Source of the DNA: Planctomycetales bacterium 71-10
GTDB taxonomy: Bacteria > Planctomycetota > Planctomycetia > Isosphaerales > Isosphaeraceae
Length of the DNA: 64,000 nt
Reading direction: 5' to 3'
NCBI GenBank assembly: GCA_001898385.1
Contig: MKTT01000109.1
Span: 54,903-118,902, forward strand
The notes below the pieces were generated by a model. It saw only the letters and a list, made by a program, of their open reading frames with translations, made no database searches and was not told the DNA's origin. The stretch's first letter is position 1; the number at the start of each line of letters is the position of its first letter. Both the position numbers and the translations under genes were made by a program. This document shows positions 4,420-31,182 of the stretch, one piece after another.

Positions 4420-5796
4420 ATGCTGAAGCTCTCCAGCGACGGACGGACGACGACCTGCGACGGCGTCACCCGTCGCGACTTCCTGAACGTCGGGGCCCTG
4501 GGCGCGCTCGGCTTCGGGCTCCCCCAGTGGTTCGCGGCGCGGGCGGCCGGGGCGGTCCGGCCCGAGGCCAAGGACCGCTCGTGCATCATGATCTTCAACC
4601 TGGGCGCGCCCAGCAACATGGACCTCTGGGACATGAAGCCGGACGCCCCCACGGAGGTCCGCGGCCCGTTCAAGCCCATCGCCACCAAGTCGACCGCGAT
4701 CCAGTTCTCCGAGATCCTCCCCCGCCACGCCGAGATCGCCGACAAGGTCTCGCTGGTCCGCTCGGTCCACCACGGCGGCGCGGCCGTCCACGACGCCGGC
4801 TGGCAGATGATGCAGACCGGCCGGCTGTTCACCGGCGGCGTCAACACGCCGCACATCGGTTCGGTCGTCGGCTACCTCGAAGGCCGCCGGACCGACCTGC
4901 CGCCGTTCGTCGTCCTCCCCGAGCTGATGGGCCGGGGCGGCGGCAACCTCCCCAACGGCCAGGCGGGGGGCTTCCTGGGCAAGGCGCACGACCCGTTCGT
5001 CCTCAACGCCGACCCTTCCAAGCCCGATTTCCGCGTCCCCGACCTGCTGCCGCCGAAGGAGATCGGCGAGATCCGCCTCGACCGCCGCCGCAAGATCCGC
5101 AGCCTCGTCGACGACGCCGTGGCCACGTTCGAGGCGTCCGAGAACGCCGCGCTCCTGGACGACAACTTCCAGTCGGCGTTCCGGCTGATGACGAGCCCGG
5201 CGGCCCGCGAGGCGTTCGACCTCTCGCGCGAGCCGTCCGAGGTCCGCGAGCGCTACGGCATGACGCGGTTCGGCCAGTCGTGCCTGCTGGCCCGGCGGCT
5301 GATCGAGGGGGGCGTCCGGTTCGTGACCGTCAACGCCTTCCTGACCGTGTTCGACGAGATCACCTGGGACATCCACGGCTCGAAGCCGTTCACGTCGGTC
5401 GAGGGGATGCGCGACATCGTCTGCCCGATGTACGACCAGGCGTATTCGGCCCTGATCGAGGACCTGGACCGTCGCGGGATGCTCGACGCGACCCTCGTCT
5501 GCAACCTGGCCGAATTCGGCCGGACCCCGCGCGTGAACCCGGCGGGGGGTCGCGACCACTGGCCGCTCTGCTACACGGTGGGATTCGCGGGGGGCGGCGT
5601 GCAGGGCGGGCGTGTGGTGGGGGCCAGCGACCCCATCGGGGCCGTGCCGGCCGACCGGCCCGTCGGCCCGGGGGACGTCGCCGCGACGATCTTCCACAGC
5701 CTGGGCCTCGACCTGGAGGCCACCCTCCCCGGCCCCGCCGGCCGCCCGTTCCCGCTGGTCGACTTCGGCTGCCGCGAGATCCGCGAGCTGTTCTGA
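4420..5796 (+). CDS. DUF1501 domain-containing secreted protein
   Basis: TRRDFLNVGALGALGFGLP signal, SCIMIFNLGAPSNMDLWDMKPDAP, TLVCNLAEFGRTPRVNPAGGRDHWP. Confidence 0.92.
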   Translation: MLKLSSDGRTTTCDGVTRRDFLNVGALGALGFGLPQWFAARAAGAVRPEAKDRSCIMIFNLGAPSNMDLWDMKPDAPTEVRGPFKPIATKSTAIQFSEILPRHAEIADKVSLVRSVHHGGAAVHDAGWQMMQTGRLFTGGVNTPHIGSVVGYLEGRRTDLPPFVVLPELMGRGGGNLPNGQAGGFLGKAHDPFVLNADPSKPDFRVPDLLPPKEIGEIRLDRRRKIRSLVDDAVATFEASENAALLDDNFQSAFRLMTSPAAREAFDLSREPSEVRERYGMTRFGQSCLLARRLIEGGVRFVTVNAFLTVFDEITWDIHGSKPFTSVEGMRDIVCPMYDQAYSALIEDLDRRGMLDATLVCNLAEFGRTPRVNPAGGRDHWPLCYTVGFAGGGVQGGRVVGASDPIGAVPADRPVGPGDVAATIFHSLGLDLEATLPGPAGRPFPLVDFGCREIRELF

Positions 5797-5831
5797 TCCG
5801 CCGCCCCTCCCCTCCCCAGGTGATCCGGACC

Positions 5832-8321
5832 ATGATCCGAACCCCGCTCGTCCTCGCCGGGCTCCTCGTCGCGAACGCCGCCGCCCGCGCCGAAGGGCCC
5901 ATCGCGGCGCTGCCCGCCGAGGTCTCCCTGAGGACGCCCGAGAGCCGACAGCGGCTCATCGTCCAGGAATCCGCGGGCGGCGAGGCGGGCCGCCAGGTCC
6001 GCGAAGGGATCGCGTGGTCCTCCAGCGATCCGGCGATCGCCCGGGTCGACGACGGCCTGGTGACCCCCGTCGCCGACGGCCGCGCGACCATCACGGCGAA
6101 GGTGGGCGACCGGACGGCCGACGTCAAGGTCGAGGTCGCCGGCATGGGCGGCCCCTTCGAATGGAGCTTCCGCGGGCACGTCGAGCCCGTGTTGACGAAG
6201 CAGGGATGCAACTCGGGGGCCTGTCACGGCGCGCTGGCGGGCAAGGGCGGATTCCGGCTCTCGCTGCTGGGCTACGACCCGGACGCGGACTTCTTCAACA
6301 TCGTGAAGCAGGACCGCGGCCGTCGCGTCGAGTTCGCCGACCCCGGCCGCAGCCTGGTGCTGGCGAAGCCCTCGGGCGCGATCGCCCACAAGGGGGGCGT
6401 CCGGTTCTCGACCGACTCGCTGGAATACCGCATCCTCTCGCGGTGGATCGCCGCCGGGGCGCCTCGACCGACGGCCGACGACCCGCGCGTCGAGCGCCTG
6501 GAGGTCGCGCCGGAGCGGTCGATCCAGGAGGTCGGCGCGGCGCAGCAGGTGCTCGTCCGGGCCTATTACTCGGACGGCCGGGCCGAGGACGTGACGCGGT
6601 GGGTCAAGTGGTCGTCGGCCGACGAGTCGGTCTGCCGGGTCGACGACCGGGGCGAGGCCCAGGTGATCGGGCCCGGCGAGGGCGCCGTCTCGGCCCGGTT
6701 CGGCAGCCGGCTGGCGATCGCGCGCGTCACGGTCCCGTACAAGAACGAGCCGCCCCCCGCGGGCGTCGCCGACGACCGCAAGCCGCGCAACTTCATCGAC
6801 GAGCGGATCGACGAGCAGCTCGCGCGGCTGAACCTGCCGGCCTCCCCCGCGTGCAGCGACGCCGAATTCGTCCGCCGCGCGTACGTCGACGCCGTCGGCC
6901 GGATCCCGACCGTCGACGAGTCGCGGGCGTTCCTCGCCGACCCCTCGGAGGGCCGCCGCGACGCCCTGATCGACCGATTGCTGTCCATGCCGGAGTTCGT
7001 CGACTACTGGACCTACAAGTGGTCCGACCTCCTCACGCTCAACGGCACGCGGCTGCGGCCCCAGGCGCTCAAGGCGTATTACGAGTGGATCCGCCGGCAG
7101 GTGGCCGAAGGCGTCCCCTGGGACCGCTTCGTCCGCCAGGTCGTCACGGCGACGGGCGAGAGCGTGGAGAACGGGGCGACCAACTTCTACGCACTGAGCC
7201 AGTCGCCCGAGGAGATGACCGAGAACGTGAGCCAGGCGTTCCTGGGGCTCTCCATCGCCTGCGCCAAGTGCCACGATCACCCGCTGGAGAAGTGGACCAA
7301 CGATCAATATTACGGCATGGCCAGCCTGTTCGCCCGGGTCCGCGCCAAGGGCTGGGGGGGCGAGGGCCGCGTCGGCGACGGGCTCCGCACCGTGTACGTC
7401 GCCGAGTCCGGCGAGCTGGTCCAGCCGAGGACCGGCAAGCCCCGGCCCCCCGCCCCGCTCGACGGAGAGACGTTGAGCTTCGACGACCCGGCCGACCGTC
7501 GCGAGGCCCTGGCGAGATGGCTCACCGCGCCGGAGAACCCGTACTTCGCCCGGTCGATCGCGAACCGCGTCTGGGCCAACTTCTTCGGCGTGGGCCTGGT
7601 CGAGAAGGTCGACGACATGCGGGCCTCGAACCCCGCCAGCAACGAGACCCTCCTCTCGGCCGCGGCGGCGTTCGTGGTCGAGAACAAGTTCGACCTGAAG
7701 GCGCTGATGAAGGCGATCCTCCGGTCGAACGCCTACCAGCGCACCAGCAAGCCGCTCCCCGGCAACGAGGCGGACCGGCGGTTCTACTCGCGATACTACC
7801 CGCGCCGGATGATGGCCGAGGTCCTGCACGACGCGATCGTCCAGGTCACCGAGGCGCCGACGAAGTTCGAGTTCATCGGCTTCCCGGGCAACGACCGCGA
7901 GAAGACCGACTTCTACCCGCTGGGGACGCGGGCGATCCAGCTCTACGACGCCGCCGTGGACAACTACTTCCTCCAGTCGTTCGGCCGCAACGCGCGGCGG
8001 ATCGTCTGCGAGTGCGAGCGGTCGGACGAGCCGACGATGATCCAGGTGCTGCACCTCTCCAACGGGTCGACGCTCAACGAGAAGCTGCACGCGCCGGGGA
8101 ATCGGCTGGCGAAGCTGATGAAGCTCCGCCGCGCCGGCATGTCCCCCGCGGCGATGGTGGACGACCTGTACCTCGCCTGCCTCTCGCGCTACCCGACCGA
8201 CCCCGAGCGCGGCCGGCTGCTCGACCTCCTGCCGCCGTCGGGCGATCCCGCCGAGGCGGAAGTCCTGGAAGACCTGTTCTGGGGCGTGATGAGCAGCCGG
8301 GAATTCCTGTTCAACCACTGA
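5832..8321 (+). CDS. DUF1549/DUF1553 protein with Big_2-like domain and PSCyt-type cysteine motifs
   Basis: WSSSDPAIARVDDGLVTPVADGRATITA (Big_2), QGCNSGACHG, CAKCHDHP, FYSRYYPRRMMAEVLHDAI. Confidence 0.9.
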   Translation: MIRTPLVLAGLLVANAAARAEGPIAALPAEVSLRTPESRQRLIVQESAGGEAGRQVREGIAWSSSDPAIARVDDGLVTPVADGRATITAKVGDRTADVKVEVAGMGGPFEWSFRGHVEPVLTKQGCNSGACHGALAGKGGFRLSLLGYDPDADFFNIVKQDRGRRVEFADPGRSLVLAKPSGAIAHKGGVRFSTDSLEYRILSRWIAAGAPRPTADDPRVERLEVAPERSIQEVGAAQQVLVRAYYSDGRAEDVTRWVKWSSADESVCRVDDRGEAQVIGPGEGAVSARFGSRLAIARVTVPYKNEPPPAGVADDRKPRNFIDERIDEQLARLNLPASPACSDAEFVRRAYVDAVGRIPTVDESRAFLADPSEGRRDALIDRLLSMPEFVDYWTYKWSDLLTLNGTRLRPQALKAYYEWIRRQVAEGVPWDRFVRQVVTATGESVENGATNFYALSQSPEEMTENVSQAFLGLSIACAKCHDHPLEKWTNDQYYGMASLFARVRAKGWGGEGRVGDGLRTVYVAESGELVQPRTGKPRPPAPLDGETLSFDDPADRREALARWLTAPENPYFARSIANRVWANFFGVGLVEKVDDMRASNPASNETLLSAAAAFVVENKFDLKALMKAILRSNAYQRTSKPLPGNEADRRFYSRYYPRRMMAEVLHDAIVQVTEAPTKFEFIGFPGNDREKTDFYPLGTRAIQLYDAAVDNYFLQSFGRNARRIVCECERSDEPTMIQVLHLSNGSTLNEKLHAPGNRLAKLMKLRRAGMSPAAMVDDLYLACLSRYPTDPERGRLLDLLPPSGDPAEAEVLEDLFWGVMSSREFLFNH

Positions 8322-22948: not shown

Positions 22949-22963
22949 TATACCCCGCGTATA
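22949..22963. promoter_or_regulatory. Palindrome site 1 (TATACCCCGCGTATA), candidate parS-like
   Basis: 15-bp core repeated around parAB. Confidence 0.6.
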
Positions 22964-25321: not shown

Positions 25322-26254
25322 TCAGGCGGCCTGTTCGGCGCGGGTTTCGAGCTGGGCGAGGGCGTCGCGGAGGGCGGCGACGAGCGTCGCGTCGTCGACC
25401 CCCTTCTTGCACTCGACCGTGACCTTGCACCCCGCGGCGCGGAGGGTGCGGACGGTCGGGAGCTTGGCCGCGGCCTTCGCCCCCCTCCCCTTGCCGACGG
25501 TCGACGGCGCGCGGCGGGCGGCGACCTTCACAGCCTCCACGGCCTCGGCGCGGCTGAGGCGCTCGGCGACGACCCGCTCGGCCAGCTCGCCCTGGATCGC
25601 GGGGTCCTGGACCTTGCCGATCTCGTAGGCGGTGGCCGGCGAGAGCGCCCCCTGCTCCACCTTCTCCTGGACGGGCTCGGGGAGGTCCAGCAGCGCGAGC
25701 GCACGGACGACGGTCGGCTGCGCGACGCCCAGGGCCTTCGCCGCCTGGTTGCCCGACCAGCCGTTGCGGTCCATCAGGGCGCGGAACGCCTTCGCCTGTT
25801 CGATCGGCTTCAGGTCTTCGCGCAGGCAGTTCTCGATGAGTTGCAGCGCCCGCAATTCCCCCTCGTCGACGGGGCCCTCGGAGACGACGCACGAGAGCGT
25901 CGCCAGGCCGGCGAGGCCGGCGGCGCGCCAGCGGCGCTCGCCGCAGACGACGACGTAGCGGTCGCGGGCCTCGTCCCAGCGGACGCGGATCGGCTGGAGT
26001 TGGCCGCGGGTCTTGAGCGACTCGGCCAGCCGGGCCAGCGCGTCGGGCTCGAACTCCTCGCGGGGCTGGTCGGGGTCGGGGACGATCTTGTCCACGGGCA
26101 CCTCGACGGCGTTCTTGCTCTTGGCGACCCCCTGCCATCGGCTGGGGACGGCGGACGTGCGGACCTCCCCCGCGGCCGGCCGCGACAGCCCCGCGCCCAT
26201 GCTCTCGGCGATGTTCGCCCCGCCGGCCTTCAGCAGCTCGTCCAGCTTCCCCAT
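25322..26254 (-). CDS. parB: Partition protein ParB
   Basis: VPVDKIVPDPDQPREEFEPDALARLAESLKTRGQLQPIRVR, GERRWRAA, ALQLIENCLREDLKPIEQAKAF. Confidence 0.93.
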   Translation of the reverse strand: MGKLDELLKAGGANIAESMGAGLSRPAAGEVRTSAVPSRWQGVAKSKNAVEVPVDKIVPDPDQPREEFEPDALARLAESLKTRGQLQPIRVRWDEARDRYVVVCGERRWRAAGLAGLATLSCVVSEGPVDEGELRALQLIENCLREDLKPIEQAKAFRALMDRNGWSGNQAAKALGVAQPTVVRALALLDLPEPVQEKVEQGALSPATAYEIGKVQDPAIQGELAERVVAERLSRAEAVEAVKVAARRAPSTVGKGRGAKAAAKLPTVRTLRAAGCKVTVECKKGVDDATLVAALRDALAQLETRAEQAA

Positions 26255-26255
26255 G

Positions 26256-27071
26256 TCAGGCGGCCTCCCCCGCGGCCGTCGGCTCGTCGGCCGCGGCCAG
26301 TCGCGCGAAGATCTCCTCCCCCAGCGCCTTCATCACCTTGGTCGCCGCCCCCCTGGGCTTGTACTGCGCGACCGGCTGGCGCTGGACGATCGCCTCCTTG
26401 AAGTCGGTGGAGATCGGGATCGTGGTCGTGAACACGGCGTCGCCGTAGTGCGTCCGCAGGAGTTGTTCGAACCCCTTGTGGACCGACAGGCGGGGGTTGG
26501 ACATCGTCACCAGGAACCCCAGCAGCCGCAGCGCGGGGTTGGGGCCGGAGACGACGCGGTCGATGGACTCCTGGACGTCGGCGATCCCCTGCGCCCCGAA
26601 GTCCTCGGGCTGGAGCGGGACGAGGAGCCCGTCGGAGGCGACGAGCGACGTCCACGACGCCAGGTGGAGGTTCGGCGGGCAGTCGATCAGGACGAGGTCG
26701 TACCCGCCGGAGACGTCCGCCAGGAAGTCCCGCAGCGAGGTCTGGAGCGGCCAGTCCGTCAGGTGGGGATCCGGGACGTTGAAGCTCCCCGCGGCTCGGC
26801 CGCCGCAGAGGAGGTCGACGCCGGGGACGTGCGTGCCCCGGATGACCTGCTCGGCCATCGCCTCCTGGTGGTAGACGGCGGCGATGGTCTCCGAGGGATC
26901 CAGGGCCCGCGTCGCCTGGGGCCCGAGGAACCCCTGAGTGAGGCTGGCCTGGGGGTCGTTGTCGACGAGCAGCACCCGCCTCCCCCCGAGGGCCAGCGCC
27001 CCTGCCAGGTGGTAGCAGGTGGAGGTCTTCCCGACCCCCCCCTTCTGGTTCAATGCCGTGACGACCGACAT
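26256..27071 (-). CDS. parA: Partition ATPase ParA
   Basis: MSVVTALNQKGGVGKTSTCYHLAGALALGGRRVLLVDNDPQASLTQGFLG; ATG at 27071. Confidence 0.95.
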   Translation of the reverse strand: MSVVTALNQKGGVGKTSTCYHLAGALALGGRRVLLVDNDPQASLTQGFLGPQATRALDPSETIAAVYHQEAMAEQVIRGTHVPGVDLLCGGRAAGSFNVPDPHLTDWPLQTSLRDFLADVSGGYDLVLIDCPPNLHLASWTSLVASDGLLVPLQPEDFGAQGIADVQESIDRVVSGPNPALRLLGFLVTMSNPRLSVHKGFEQLLRTHYGDAVFTTTIPISTDFKEAIVQRQPVAQYKPRGAATKVMKALGEEIFARLAAADEPTAAGEAA

Positions 27072-27122
27072 GCGTCCTCCTCCCCCGGAATGGTTTCCCG
27101 ACGGGTGAGGTATCGGACGGGT

Positions 27123-27137
27123 TATACCCCGCGTATA
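27123..27137. promoter_or_regulatory. Palindrome site 2 (TATACCCCGCGTATA; extended TTATAC-N5-GTATAA) upstream of parA
   Basis: Same core as sites 1 and 4. Confidence 0.65.
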
Positions 27138-27167
27138 AGCCTTTCCCCGGCGCATCCGGAAGCCCCC

Positions 27168-27182
27168 GATACGCGGGGTATA
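27168..27182. promoter_or_regulatory. Palindrome site 3 (GATACGCGGGGTATA, inverted orientation) upstream of parA
   Basis: 14/15 match to reverse complement of the core; 45 bp from site 2. Confidence 0.6.
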
Positions 27183-27637
27183 ATCCCCGGCCCGCGGGGC
27201 CTCAGGCGTTGGGTCCGTTCGCCGCCGTCGGGCCGTCGCGGGACGATGGTGTTCGGTGTCGCAAGTCGTTTGCGGATCGTCGATTGACGCCTGGACGAAG
27301 CGGCCGGGAAGTTGGCTTTGAACGTCGAAATCGATCAAGTTTTCGAGCGTCCCCGCCGACCGTCTCTGGTGCGTGGGCCTGGAATGGACCATGGGGCGAC
27401 GATCGCGCGGCGCGGCGGCCTCGGCGCAGGCGCGGACGACCGCCGACCAAGCGCCTGTTTCGCCGCCCCCGTTTGCGATCGTCCACCGTCCCATCTCAAG
27501 CCTCCGGGTCCCGCCGTGCTCCATTTCCGAGTACGATCGCCGGGACGAGATCGGGGATTTCAGGATTCCGCGGAATCTTGAGAGAGGGCTCGAGGTCGGC
27601 CCCTGCGCTGTGCCCGCTAGGCGGCCCGACGGCCGGT

Positions 27638-27652
27638 TATACCCCGCGTATA
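27638..27652. promoter_or_regulatory. Palindrome site 4 (TATACCCCGCGTATA)
   Basis: Identical core to sites 1 and 2. Confidence 0.6.
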
Positions 27653-27794
27653 GCCCACCGGGGCGACCAATCCAATCGACGCACCGACTGTCGACTTCAT
27701 CGGATTATGACAGATGTGGTAGGGTGGACCGGTACGTCGGTTCGCGGTGGAACGCGCCCCTACCTCGGGCCCGGGGCGTGAGGAGCCTACGGCC

Positions 27795-28766
27795 ATGCGA
27801 GAGACGTTCGCACGCGGATCGTGGAGGCTCCATCGGGGGCTCACCCTGGTCGAAGTCCTGGTGATCCTGGCGATCCTGGGGGTCTTGATCGGCATACTCT
27901 TGCCCGCGAGGCGGACCGCCGGAGAGGCGGCGCGGCGGGCCCAGTGCATGAACAACCTGAAGAACATCGCCCTCGCCGTTTCGAACTACGGGATGGCCCA
28001 CGGCGTCTTGCCGCCCGCTTCCACTGTGGATGTTGATGGACGTCCGCTGCATGGCTGGCGGACGCTGACCTTGCCCCACAACGAAGAGGATGTGCTGTAT
28101 AGCACGATCGACCTCGCGAAGCCCTGGGACGATCCGGCGAATGCCCGAGCCGGCGAGGAGCGCCTCTCGGTCTTCATCTGCCCGAACGCGACGACGCCCA
28201 GGAACGCGACGACTTATCTCGCGACCCTGGAGCCGGGCGGATGCCTGATCCCAGGAAAGTCCCGACGGCTCGCCGATGTGTCCGACGGGACGGCGAATAC
28301 CTTGTTGATCATCGAGGCCGGCGACGACCGGGCGGTCCCCTGGATGGCTCCGAGGGATGCGGACGAGTCCGTCCTGACGGGCTTCGCTTCGGCGAAGCTG
28401 CACCATTCGGGAGGGGCCCACGCCGCGTTCCTGGTCCGCGAGGGGCGGGAGGTCGTCCGGGATCCCGAGGAGCCCTATCCTCGAACCGCCCTCGGGCTGG
28501 ACAGGAGCCGGGATCGCCTCTGGCTGGTCGTCGTGGACGGCAAGCAACCGCGATACAGCGAGGGGATGACCCTCCGCGAACTGGCCCGGTTCCTCGTCCA
28601 GATCGGGGTCGAGGACGCCATCCAGCTCGACGGCGGCGGCTCCGCGACGATGGTCGCGCGCGATGGGGCTGGCGATGCGATCCTCCTCAACCGACCCTGC
28701 CACACGAAGGTCCCCGGCAGGCAACGGCCGGTCGCGAACTTCCTGGGGGTGATCTTCCCGAAATGA
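27795..28766 (+). CDS. DUF1559 pseudopilin-like N-terminus fused to C-terminal half of a phosphodiester glycosidase (NAGPA) domain
   Basis: RGLTLVEVLVILAILGVLIGILLPA...MNNLKNIALAVSNYGMAHGVLPPA then YPRTALGLDRSRDRLWLVVVDGKQPRYSEGMTLRELARFL..EDAIQLDGGGSATMVARDG..LLNRP...RPVANFLGVIF. Confidence 0.85.
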   Translation: MRETFARGSWRLHRGLTLVEVLVILAILGVLIGILLPARRTAGEAARRAQCMNNLKNIALAVSNYGMAHGVLPPASTVDVDGRPLHGWRTLTLPHNEEDVLYSTIDLAKPWDDPANARAGEERLSVFICPNATTPRNATTYLATLEPGGCLIPGKSRRLADVSDGTANTLLIIEAGDDRAVPWMAPRDADESVLTGFASAKLHHSGGAHAAFLVREGREVVRDPEEPYPRTALGLDRSRDRLWLVVVDGKQPRYSEGMTLRELARFLVQIGVEDAIQLDGGGSATMVARDGAGDAILLNRPCHTKVPGRQRPVANFLGVIFPK

Positions 28767-28817
28767 CGCCCGCGCGTTCGGCCCGGGACCGTCGGGGTCG
28801 ATCAAGGGGAGGGGGCC

Positions 28818-29099
28818 GTGCGGGCCTTCATGCGCGCGACCGCCTCGTCGCAGAGGACGCGGAAGATCCGGTACGCGGGGCGAGGCGTTGCGAAGGGCAA
28901 GAGCGGGGCGAACCGAGTTTGCTATGTCCTCTACCCCGAGTTCGGGACCGTAGCTCTGGTGGCTGTCTTCGGCAAGAATGAGAAAGCCGATCTGAGCGCC
29001 GTGGATCGACGCGCCGTCGCGAAGATGGTCGATGCGTTCCGCGACGAGTTGAGGGATGTGGCGAGTCGAGGGCGCGGGAGGGGACCGAACGATGGGTAA
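28818..29099 (+). CDS. RelE/HigB-type toxin, apparently N-terminally shortened
   Basis: RKIRYAGRGVAKGKSGANRVCYVLYPEFGTVALVAVFGKNEKADLSAVDRRAV. Confidence 0.7.
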   Translation: MRAFMRATASSQRTRKIRYAGRGVAKGKSGANRVCYVLYPEFGTVALVAVFGKNEKADLSAVDRRAVAKMVDAFRDELRDVASRGRGRGPNDG

Positions 29100-29478
29100 G
29101 ATGCTTGACGGTCGGTCCCGAGGACGCGGAGGAAATCGGTCGCTCACGGCCGCAGGCTCGAAGATCGTCGCGGCCTTTGAGGAGGCGATCGAGGTCGTCC
29201 GCGCGGAGGGCGAAGGGCCCAGGCTGACGGCGCGGACCTACCCGCTGGCGTTCGCGCTCGTCGACTACGGCCCGGGGGACGTGCGGCGCGTCCGCGACCT
29301 GCTTGATATGAGCCAGGTCGTCTTCGCCCGCTTCCTGGGGGTCGGCCCGAATACCGTCCGCTCCTGGGAGCAGGGGACGCGACCCCCAAGCCCCATCGCC
29401 CGCCGATTCATGGTCGAGATCGAGGCCGATCCCGACTACTGGCGTCGACGCACGGCCTCCCCTATACGCGGCGTATAA
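29092..29478 (+). CDS. XRE-family HTH antitoxin (HigA-like)
   Basis: RDLLDMSQVVFARFLGVGPNTVRSWEQGTRPPSPIARRFM; ATG overlaps toxin stop by 8 nt. Confidence 0.82.
   Translation: MGKMLDGRSRGRGGNRSLTAAGSKIVAAFEEAIEVVRAEGEGPRLTARTYPLAFALVDYGPGDVRRVRDLLDMSQVVFARFLGVGPNTVRSWEQGTRPPSPIARRFMVEIEADPDYWRRRTASPIRGV
29463..29477. promoter_or_regulatory. Palindrome site 5 (TATACGC-G-GCGTATA), perfect 7-1-7 palindrome overlapping the antitoxin stop codon
   Basis: One mismatch to reverse complement of the core. Confidence 0.55.
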
Positions 29479-29484
29479 CCCCCG

Positions 29485-31182
29485 TCAGGGGACGTTGCGG
29501 CCGAGCTTCAGCAGCAGGCGTTCGACGCGATAGACGACCTCGACGTCCTTGTCGCGGAGGGCTTCCTCCAGCGCGGGGACGGCGGCGGGGCCGAGGGATT
29601 GGAGGCGGGATTCGGCCTCCTCGCGGGCCTTCCACGAGTCGTCGCCGAGCTGCCGCACCAGGGCCTTCGCGCGGTCTTGCAGGCGCGGGTCGACGCCGCG
29701 GACGACGACCAGGGCGACGCGCGTGAACTTCTTCGGCGTCGGGAAGACGTCGAGCGGGACGGCCTCGTCGATCGCCTCGCGCGAGAGATGGGCGACGACG
29801 ATCAGTTCGCCAGGCTCGAACAGGTCCTTCGCGTAGGCGTCGAGGATCGTCGCGACGACGTCCTTGCGGACGCCCCGTCCTTCGAGCCGGCGGGCGAGGG
29901 CGTCGCGGGTGAACTCGCGGTAGGATGGGTCGGCCGCCTTCAGGGGCTGCGACATGCCGACCTTCACCGGCGGGCCCTCGATCGGCCCCCCCTTCTTCTC
30001 CGAGGCGGCGGCCAGGCGGGCGGCGGTGGTGATGTAGAGCCGGCCCTCGTCGGTGACGCGGTAGCTCAGGTTCACGGGGCCGAGGAGGTCGGCCAGGGCG
30101 TCGCGCGCGGGGACCTCGGCCGCCTTCAGGCTCGTCGGCTTGGCGAGGTCCACCTTCTCCTTCGCCAGCGTCTTGTCGTCGAACTCCAGCCGCAGCCGCG
30201 CCTGCGAGGCGGCCATCCCCAGGAGGTCGCGCCGGGGGGCCGACTCGACGGCCGCCGTGACGCGACGGTTCAGGAACTGGTCGACGCGAGCCTTCATGTC
30301 GGCGTCCCCCTCGGCGGGGAGCGGGGGGGGCTCGTCGTCGGCCTTCTTCTCCTCGGGCTTCTCGGCGTCGGCGAAGACGGCGTCGGCCTGCTTCGCCGGA
30401 TCCGGCTTCGCGGCTTCGGCCTTCTTGGCCTCGGCCTCCTTCTTCGCGGCCTCGGACTTCTCGGCGTCCGCGTCGGCGGCGGCGGACGGCAGCTCGTCGA
30501 GCCAGCCGACGCGCAGGCCGGCGTCGGCCGGGGCGACGACGGCGACGTCGATGAGGCGACGGTTCGTCATATTCTGGATCGTATATTCGTCCGGGCCGCC
30601 GCGGACGCGCACCGGGGAGGGGAGGGCGGGCTCGGCGTCGTAGGCGAGGAAGCGTTCGAAGCGGGTCTCGTTCTTGAGGTAGAGCGCCCCGGGCGCGGCG
30701 CGGAGCTTGCCGAGCAGGCCGCCGTCGTCGGGGAGGTAGCTGGGGGGGATGTCGGCGGGGGGCTCCGCCAGCAGGTCGGAGCCGAACCAGCGGACGCGGC
30801 CGGCGTGCTCCTTGCCGGCCGGCCAGTGGGCGAGGAAGCTCCCGGACTTGATCTTGAGGTCGACGTCGACGTCGCGGCAGGGGTCGCCGAAGAACTGGAC
30901 GAACGAGATCGGGGCGATCGGGAAGAGGCCGTCGGCCTCCTTCCCCTCGCGCCGCGGGCGGCTCGTGCCGACGACGCCCGGCATCGCGTTGCGGTAGACC
31001 TTGGCCGTGTTGAGCGTGGTCTGCGCGGGGTCGGCGACCCAGACCGAGACGTCGCTCACCTCGACCGGGATCTGCGCCGCCTCGTCGCGGGGCCGCGCCG
31101 GCGGCTCTTCGGCGACGGCCGCGGCCAGGACGAGCGCGAGGGCGACGAACGTCCCCAGGGGGCGGATCGGGCGGCGGGTCAT
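29485..31182 (-). CDS. Secreted hypothetical protein with C-terminal HEAT-like repeats
   Basis: Signal peptide; DRAKALVRQLGDDSWKAREEAESRLQSLGPAAVPALEEALRDKDVEVVYRVERLLLKLG. Confidence 0.75.
   Translation of the reverse strand: MTRRPIRPLGTFVALALVLAAAVAEEPPARPRDEAAQIPVEVSDVSVWVADPAQTTLNTAKVYRNAMPGVVGTSRPRREGKEADGLFPIAPISFVQFFGDPCRDVDVDLKIKSGSFLAHWPAGKEHAGRVRWFGSDLLAEPPADIPPSYLPDDGGLLGKLRAAPGALYLKNETRFERFLAYDAEPALPSPVRVRGGPDEYTIQNMTNRRLIDVAVVAPADAGLRVGWLDELPSAAADADAEKSEAAKKEAEAKKAEAAKPDPAKQADAVFADAEKPEEKKADDEPPPLPAEGDADMKARVDQFLNRRVTAAVESAPRRDLLGMAASQARLRLEFDDKTLAKEKVDLAKPTSLKAAEVPARDALADLLGPVNLSYRVTDEGRLYITTAARLAAASEKKGGPIEGPPVKVGMSQPLKAADPSYREFTRDALARRLEGRGVRKDVVATILDAYAKDLFEPGELIVVAHLSREAIDEAVPLDVFPTPKKFTRVALVVVRGVDPRLQDRAKALVRQLGDDSWKAREEAESRLQSLGPAAVPALEEALRDKDVEVVYRVERLLLKLGRNVP

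Follow-up and report, generated by a model that had tools for sequence, protein, structure and literature searches.

Introduction

Planctomycete DUF1559 proteins of the H-X9-DG prepilin type combine a class III signal with a DUF1559 body and end in some 45 residues that include the DG of the motif. Genes of this family can be carried on plasmids, since plasmids were found in all four Isosphaeraceae studied and a DUF1559 gene was present on two of them (PMC5352709). A second family, the NAGPA or DUF2233 phosphodiester glycosidases (PF09992; PDB 3ohg, 6pku), releases phosphodiester-linked sugars (PMC12419801). The two families can stand side by side. On the minus strand of locus L033 in genome G008, a complete DUF1559 gene (5640-6734) lies upstream of a complete NAGPA gene (4638-5576), 64 bp away.

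In the window, the whole 64,000-nucleotide stretch of DNA that was analysed, members of the two families are joined within one open reading frame. The encoded protein shares the class III signal and body of DUF1559 proteins, while the C-terminal part with the DG has been exchanged for half an NAGPA domain; it shares with NAGPA proteins that C-terminal half and lacks the other. Families, order and strand are the same as in the G008 tandem, where the genes are separate and intact and the DUF1559 member belongs to a different subfamily. A first, sequence-only reading of this DNA knew of no description of the architecture, and no report of a DUF1559-NAGPA protein was found in the literature searched.

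Domain content of the chimeric gene

The open reading frame contains no internal stop and holds both families in a single frame (Table 1), as had been proposed. Its product has 323 residues; the length of 324 given earlier had counted the stop as a residue. Pfam identifies a prepilin methylation motif (PF07963, N_methyl) at the N-terminus, DUF1559 (PF07596; 3.2e-30, 106.5 bits against a cut-off of 23.3) in two stretches, and NAGPA (PF09992; 7.4e-29, 101.6 bits against a cut-off of 25) in a match drawn over residues 147-319 that comes from the C-terminal half. By these scores both domain assignments are beyond chance. NCBIfam models gave pseudopilin-type N-terminal matches only. The sequence-only reading had assigned about 210 N-terminal residues to DUF1559 and the remainder to NAGPA, and both assignments held, the first with up to 60% identity to intact homologues of the same family and the second with 64% identity to an aligned Myxococcales homologue, L127.

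Table 1. Features of the chimeric gene and its neighbourhood, in window coordinates
Feature	Position	Strand	Basis
Chimeric ORF, 323 aa plus stop	27795..28766	+	translation
Putative Shine-Dalgarno GAGGAG, 9 nt 5' of ATG	27780..27785	+	sequence
Prepilin-type N-terminal motif (RG/LTLVEVLVILAILGVLIGILLP), residues 11-36	27825..27902	+	PF07963 2.3e-6
DUF1559 half, residues 1-212, ending within H-X9-DG motif	27795..28430	+	homology and Pfam
Fusion junction, residues 211-214 (A-F-L-V)	28425..28436 (approx.)	+	limits of homology to both families
NAGPA / phosphodiester glycosidase C-terminal half, residues 213-323	28431..28763	+	PF09992, L127/L132 identity, 3ohg match
DGGGS motif, residues 279-283	28629..28643	+	DGGG in all 35 intact NAGPA relatives
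parA (context; start approximate)	26256..27080	-	Pfam; 90-92% orthologues in three same-genus genomes
parB	25322-26254	-	Pfam
Truncated RelE-like toxin ORF, 93 aa, 3' of chimera	28818..29099	+	137 aa in sister species G030
HTH antitoxin-like gene (context)	29056..29478	+	Pfam HTH_3

Position of the join

Intact DUF1559 proteins match the chimera at about 50-60% identity up to residue 213. The close relatives include proteins from G043 (60%, residues 14-211), G038 and G028 (58% each) and G032 (59%), the last of which reaches residue 217 in the genome search and 213 by BLASTP. In a contig scan of 84,980 species the majority of close DUF1559 matches stopped at 206-213. Four matches (L103, L123, L151 and L153) extend to 248-257, and their open reading frames are ordinary DUF1559 genes without NAGPA. 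Approached from the other side, the best NAGPA-only matches in the scan begin at 211-213. The closest NAGPA proteins are L127 (residues 212-319), a Phycisphaerae homologue, L132 (211-319, 60%), and L141 (53%), and a match in G624, from the phylum genomes, covers 210-319 at 59%. Since the limits of DUF1559 homology (210-213) meet those of NAGPA homology (210-213), we place the join at A211-F212-L213-V214.

A start of NAGPA at residue 147, as drawn by Pfam, was rejected because DUF1559 homology accounts for residues 147-212; that boundary is an over-reach of the alignment. The stretched match would lead automatic annotation to report a nearly full NAGPA domain. With NAGPA homology starting only at 210-213 in L127, L132 and G624, the N-terminal half of this domain is truly absent, as had been suspected.

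The join cuts the H-X9-DG motif exactly at its DG, where the sequence-only reading had located it. H204 and two glycines are kept, and the DG positions, 214-215, read V-R. Intact DUF1559 relatives carry the complete motif at this site, for example HHSGGMHACFVDN in L005, and NAGPA relatives read like GRSWLVRDGE (L132). The H-X9-DG model TIGR04294 scores above its cut-off in the intact relatives L095, L105 and L033 and gives no match in the chimera, from which about 45 C-terminal DUF1559 residues are missing.

Both DUF1559 and NAGPA sequences read as strand-turn-strand at the join. AlphaFold models of low confidence, built from shallow alignments of 10 sequences for the chimera and 7 for intact L127 (mean pLDDT 46.8 and 52.1), place a strand at 212-215 in the former and 212-216 in the latter, and over the C-terminal half the two models resemble each other in strand pattern and in pLDDT, so that the comparison does not bear on foldability. 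The earlier suggestion that the join falls at a beta-strand common to both families is plausible, given the strand-turn-strand pattern and, at low confidence, the modelled strands. Because both families look alike in this respect, the hairpin may survive the swap.

Residues lost and retained

Conservation in NAGPA was assessed over 35 intact proteins, using columns conserved in at least 85% of them and the numbering of L127. The missing half takes with it Asn145 of the AIN motif and Gly172, each invariant (35/35), as well as the conserved Gly83, Pro94 and Gly178, so the NAGPA domain is incomplete and without its two invariant residues. Likewise, the match to the solved DUF2233 structure 3ohg is confined to chain residues 157-275 of 285. 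Having lost this half and its invariant residues, the protein should not be filed as an NAGPA enzyme. NAGPA hydrolase activity is most likely absent, judging by the loss of Asn, Gly and the entire N-terminal half of the globular domain.

What remains is well preserved. The NAGPA half keeps the PRTA, VDGxQ, SxG, DGGGS, N-P and R motifs and 23 of 25 conserved residues, and the DUF1559 half keeps 56 of the 58 conserved in its subfamily, both values lying within the range of intact relatives in a leave-one-out comparison. The NAGPA half gives no sign of having evolved faster than its relatives, as pairwise identity to L037 is 54% for the chimera and 50% for L127. Normal retention and the lack of acceleration fit a recent fusion and selection on both halves alike.

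Distribution

No second fused copy was found in 45 family genomes, 398 class genomes (where open reading frames were read at the listed loci) or 392 phylum genomes, in the scan of contigs from 84,980 species, which matched short peptide patterns and could miss the nearest relatives of the source genome, or on PLSDB plasmids. The search for homologues with the same fusion, which the sequence-only reading had proposed, thus leaves the chimera a singleton within the collections searched. A viral origin was rejected, there being no relative of the chimera among the viral contigs. The chimera is the only NAGPA of its genome. NAGPA of its type is rare, occurring in 7 of the 45 family genomes, its own included, and no NAGPA match was found in five other genomes of the same genus.

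Genomic context

The chimeric gene lies on a 187-kb contig that carries parAB and looks like a plasmid. ParA orthologues of 90-92% identity occur in G030, G032 and G029, and in the latter two they are located on plasmid-like contigs of 81 and 121 kb. The chimera is positioned between parA and a truncated RelE-like toxin gene. The N-terminal part of the toxin is lost in the window and kept in the 137-aa version of G030 (L061 5545-5958; RelE match weak and below the Pfam cut-off), where the toxin and HTH genes after parA form a complete pair. The corresponding stretch of G030, from parA to the antitoxin gene, is syntenic but has no chimera, and it spans about 790 nt, as compared with about 1,710 nt in the window. 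At the same site G032 has a repeat-type gene (WD40-like by eye), and G029 has a SulP-type transporter and other genes.

The interval from parA to a gene for a 565-aa protein (26256-29485, compared with L059, L060 and L061) differs in its cargo from one related genome to the next, and it is likely an insertion hotspot beside the partition genes. The flanking parAB and 565-aa genes are in the same order as on contig C4 of G032.

A 15-bp palindrome, TATAC[C/G]C[C/G]G[C/G]GTATA, recurs around the partition genes, at 22949-22963, 27123-27137, 27168-27182 (one mismatch), 27638-27652 and 29463-29477. All four exact copies in the 7.7-Mb genome fall within 6.5 kb around parAB, and the number expected in the window, allowing up to 2 mismatches, is 0.02. 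Six of six copies in G032 lie within 2.6 kb beside parA, as do four of four within 4 kb of parA in G029; G028, without this ParA, has none, and G031, also without it, has one. The palindrome resembles the parS-like site that would serve this plasmid family as its centromere, and the chimeric gene is located inside the cluster.

Origin and possible function

We favor the explanation, at a probability of roughly 0.6, that the chimera is a young gene, specific to its species and carried by a plasmid-type replicon, which was formed by illegitimate recombination and whose product is exported and anchored and is inactive as an NAGPA. In such an event, codon ~212 of a DUF1559 gene would have been linked, with the reading frame preserved, to a codon midway through an NAGPA gene, at the beta-hairpin that both families seem to possess. 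This step is inferred. No remnant of the NAGPA N-terminal half was found in the window or elsewhere in the genome, and no remnant of the DUF1559 C-terminal end in the window. The gene may have arisen in the variable stretch beside parAB or have been brought into it. If made, the product would be processed by a prepilin peptidase and anchored by its N-terminal helix, as its motif suggests, which would place the half NAGPA domain on the non-cytoplasmic side.

A single deletion in a gene pair such as the G008 tandem could give this architecture. That tandem serves as a model and not as an ancestor, because its DUF1559 protein is of another subfamily (28-33% identity) and its NAGPA half is only 54% identical to that of the chimera.

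Selection on both halves would produce the same retention of conserved residues, which counts against calling the gene young and inactive. The fusion could accordingly be a functional one, in which an NAGPA half anchored by the pseudopilin binds or hydrolyses phosphodiester-linked surface sugars and DUF1559 compensates for the lost half. The intact conserved positions, the unaccelerated NAGPA half, the good Shine-Dalgarno sequence and a join within a seemingly common hairpin are all in keeping with this idea, but the invariant Asn and Gly are gone and no second species has the chimera, and we regard it as unlikely. Its poor AlphaFold model carries little weight here, since the intact control is similarly poor. 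It is more doubtful still that a newly born protein has emerged in which the half-enzyme domain, completed by or displayed on the pseudopilin, binds or hydrolyses sugar phosphates while anchored in a filament or in the membrane. A sugar-binding role as such is possible, though unsupported.

Alternatively, the fusion might be a deletion scar in a degraded region, its expression lost. The adjacent downstream toxin gene lacks its first part, and the chimera is a singleton, as a decaying remnant might be; yet 323 codons without a stop or frameshift, and conserved residues kept at normal rates, make this improbable. Although the draft genome is in 158 contigs and the gene is absent from relatives, a misassembly that fused two separate genes is very improbable, as the join is in frame and on the same strand, matches the hairpin of both families and follows a Shine-Dalgarno sequence, the flanking genes keep their G032 order, and the assembly has no other NAGPA.

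The chimera is a clear case of a gene born of an in-frame fusion whose breakpoints fall within the two domains and not at their boundaries, where the local structures of both families seem to match. If its product is expressed and stable, it would be a natural test of half-domain swapping at similar secondary structure; if not, it warns that a Pfam match far over the cut-off (101 bits) may stem from half an enzyme.

A separate observation concerns G011, where the intact NAGPA gene (L032 4174-5394) carries about eight in-frame NEPIPPGS octapeptide repeats directly before its PHTALG motif, and phage-like genes (terminase/portal by eye) may stand upstream of it.
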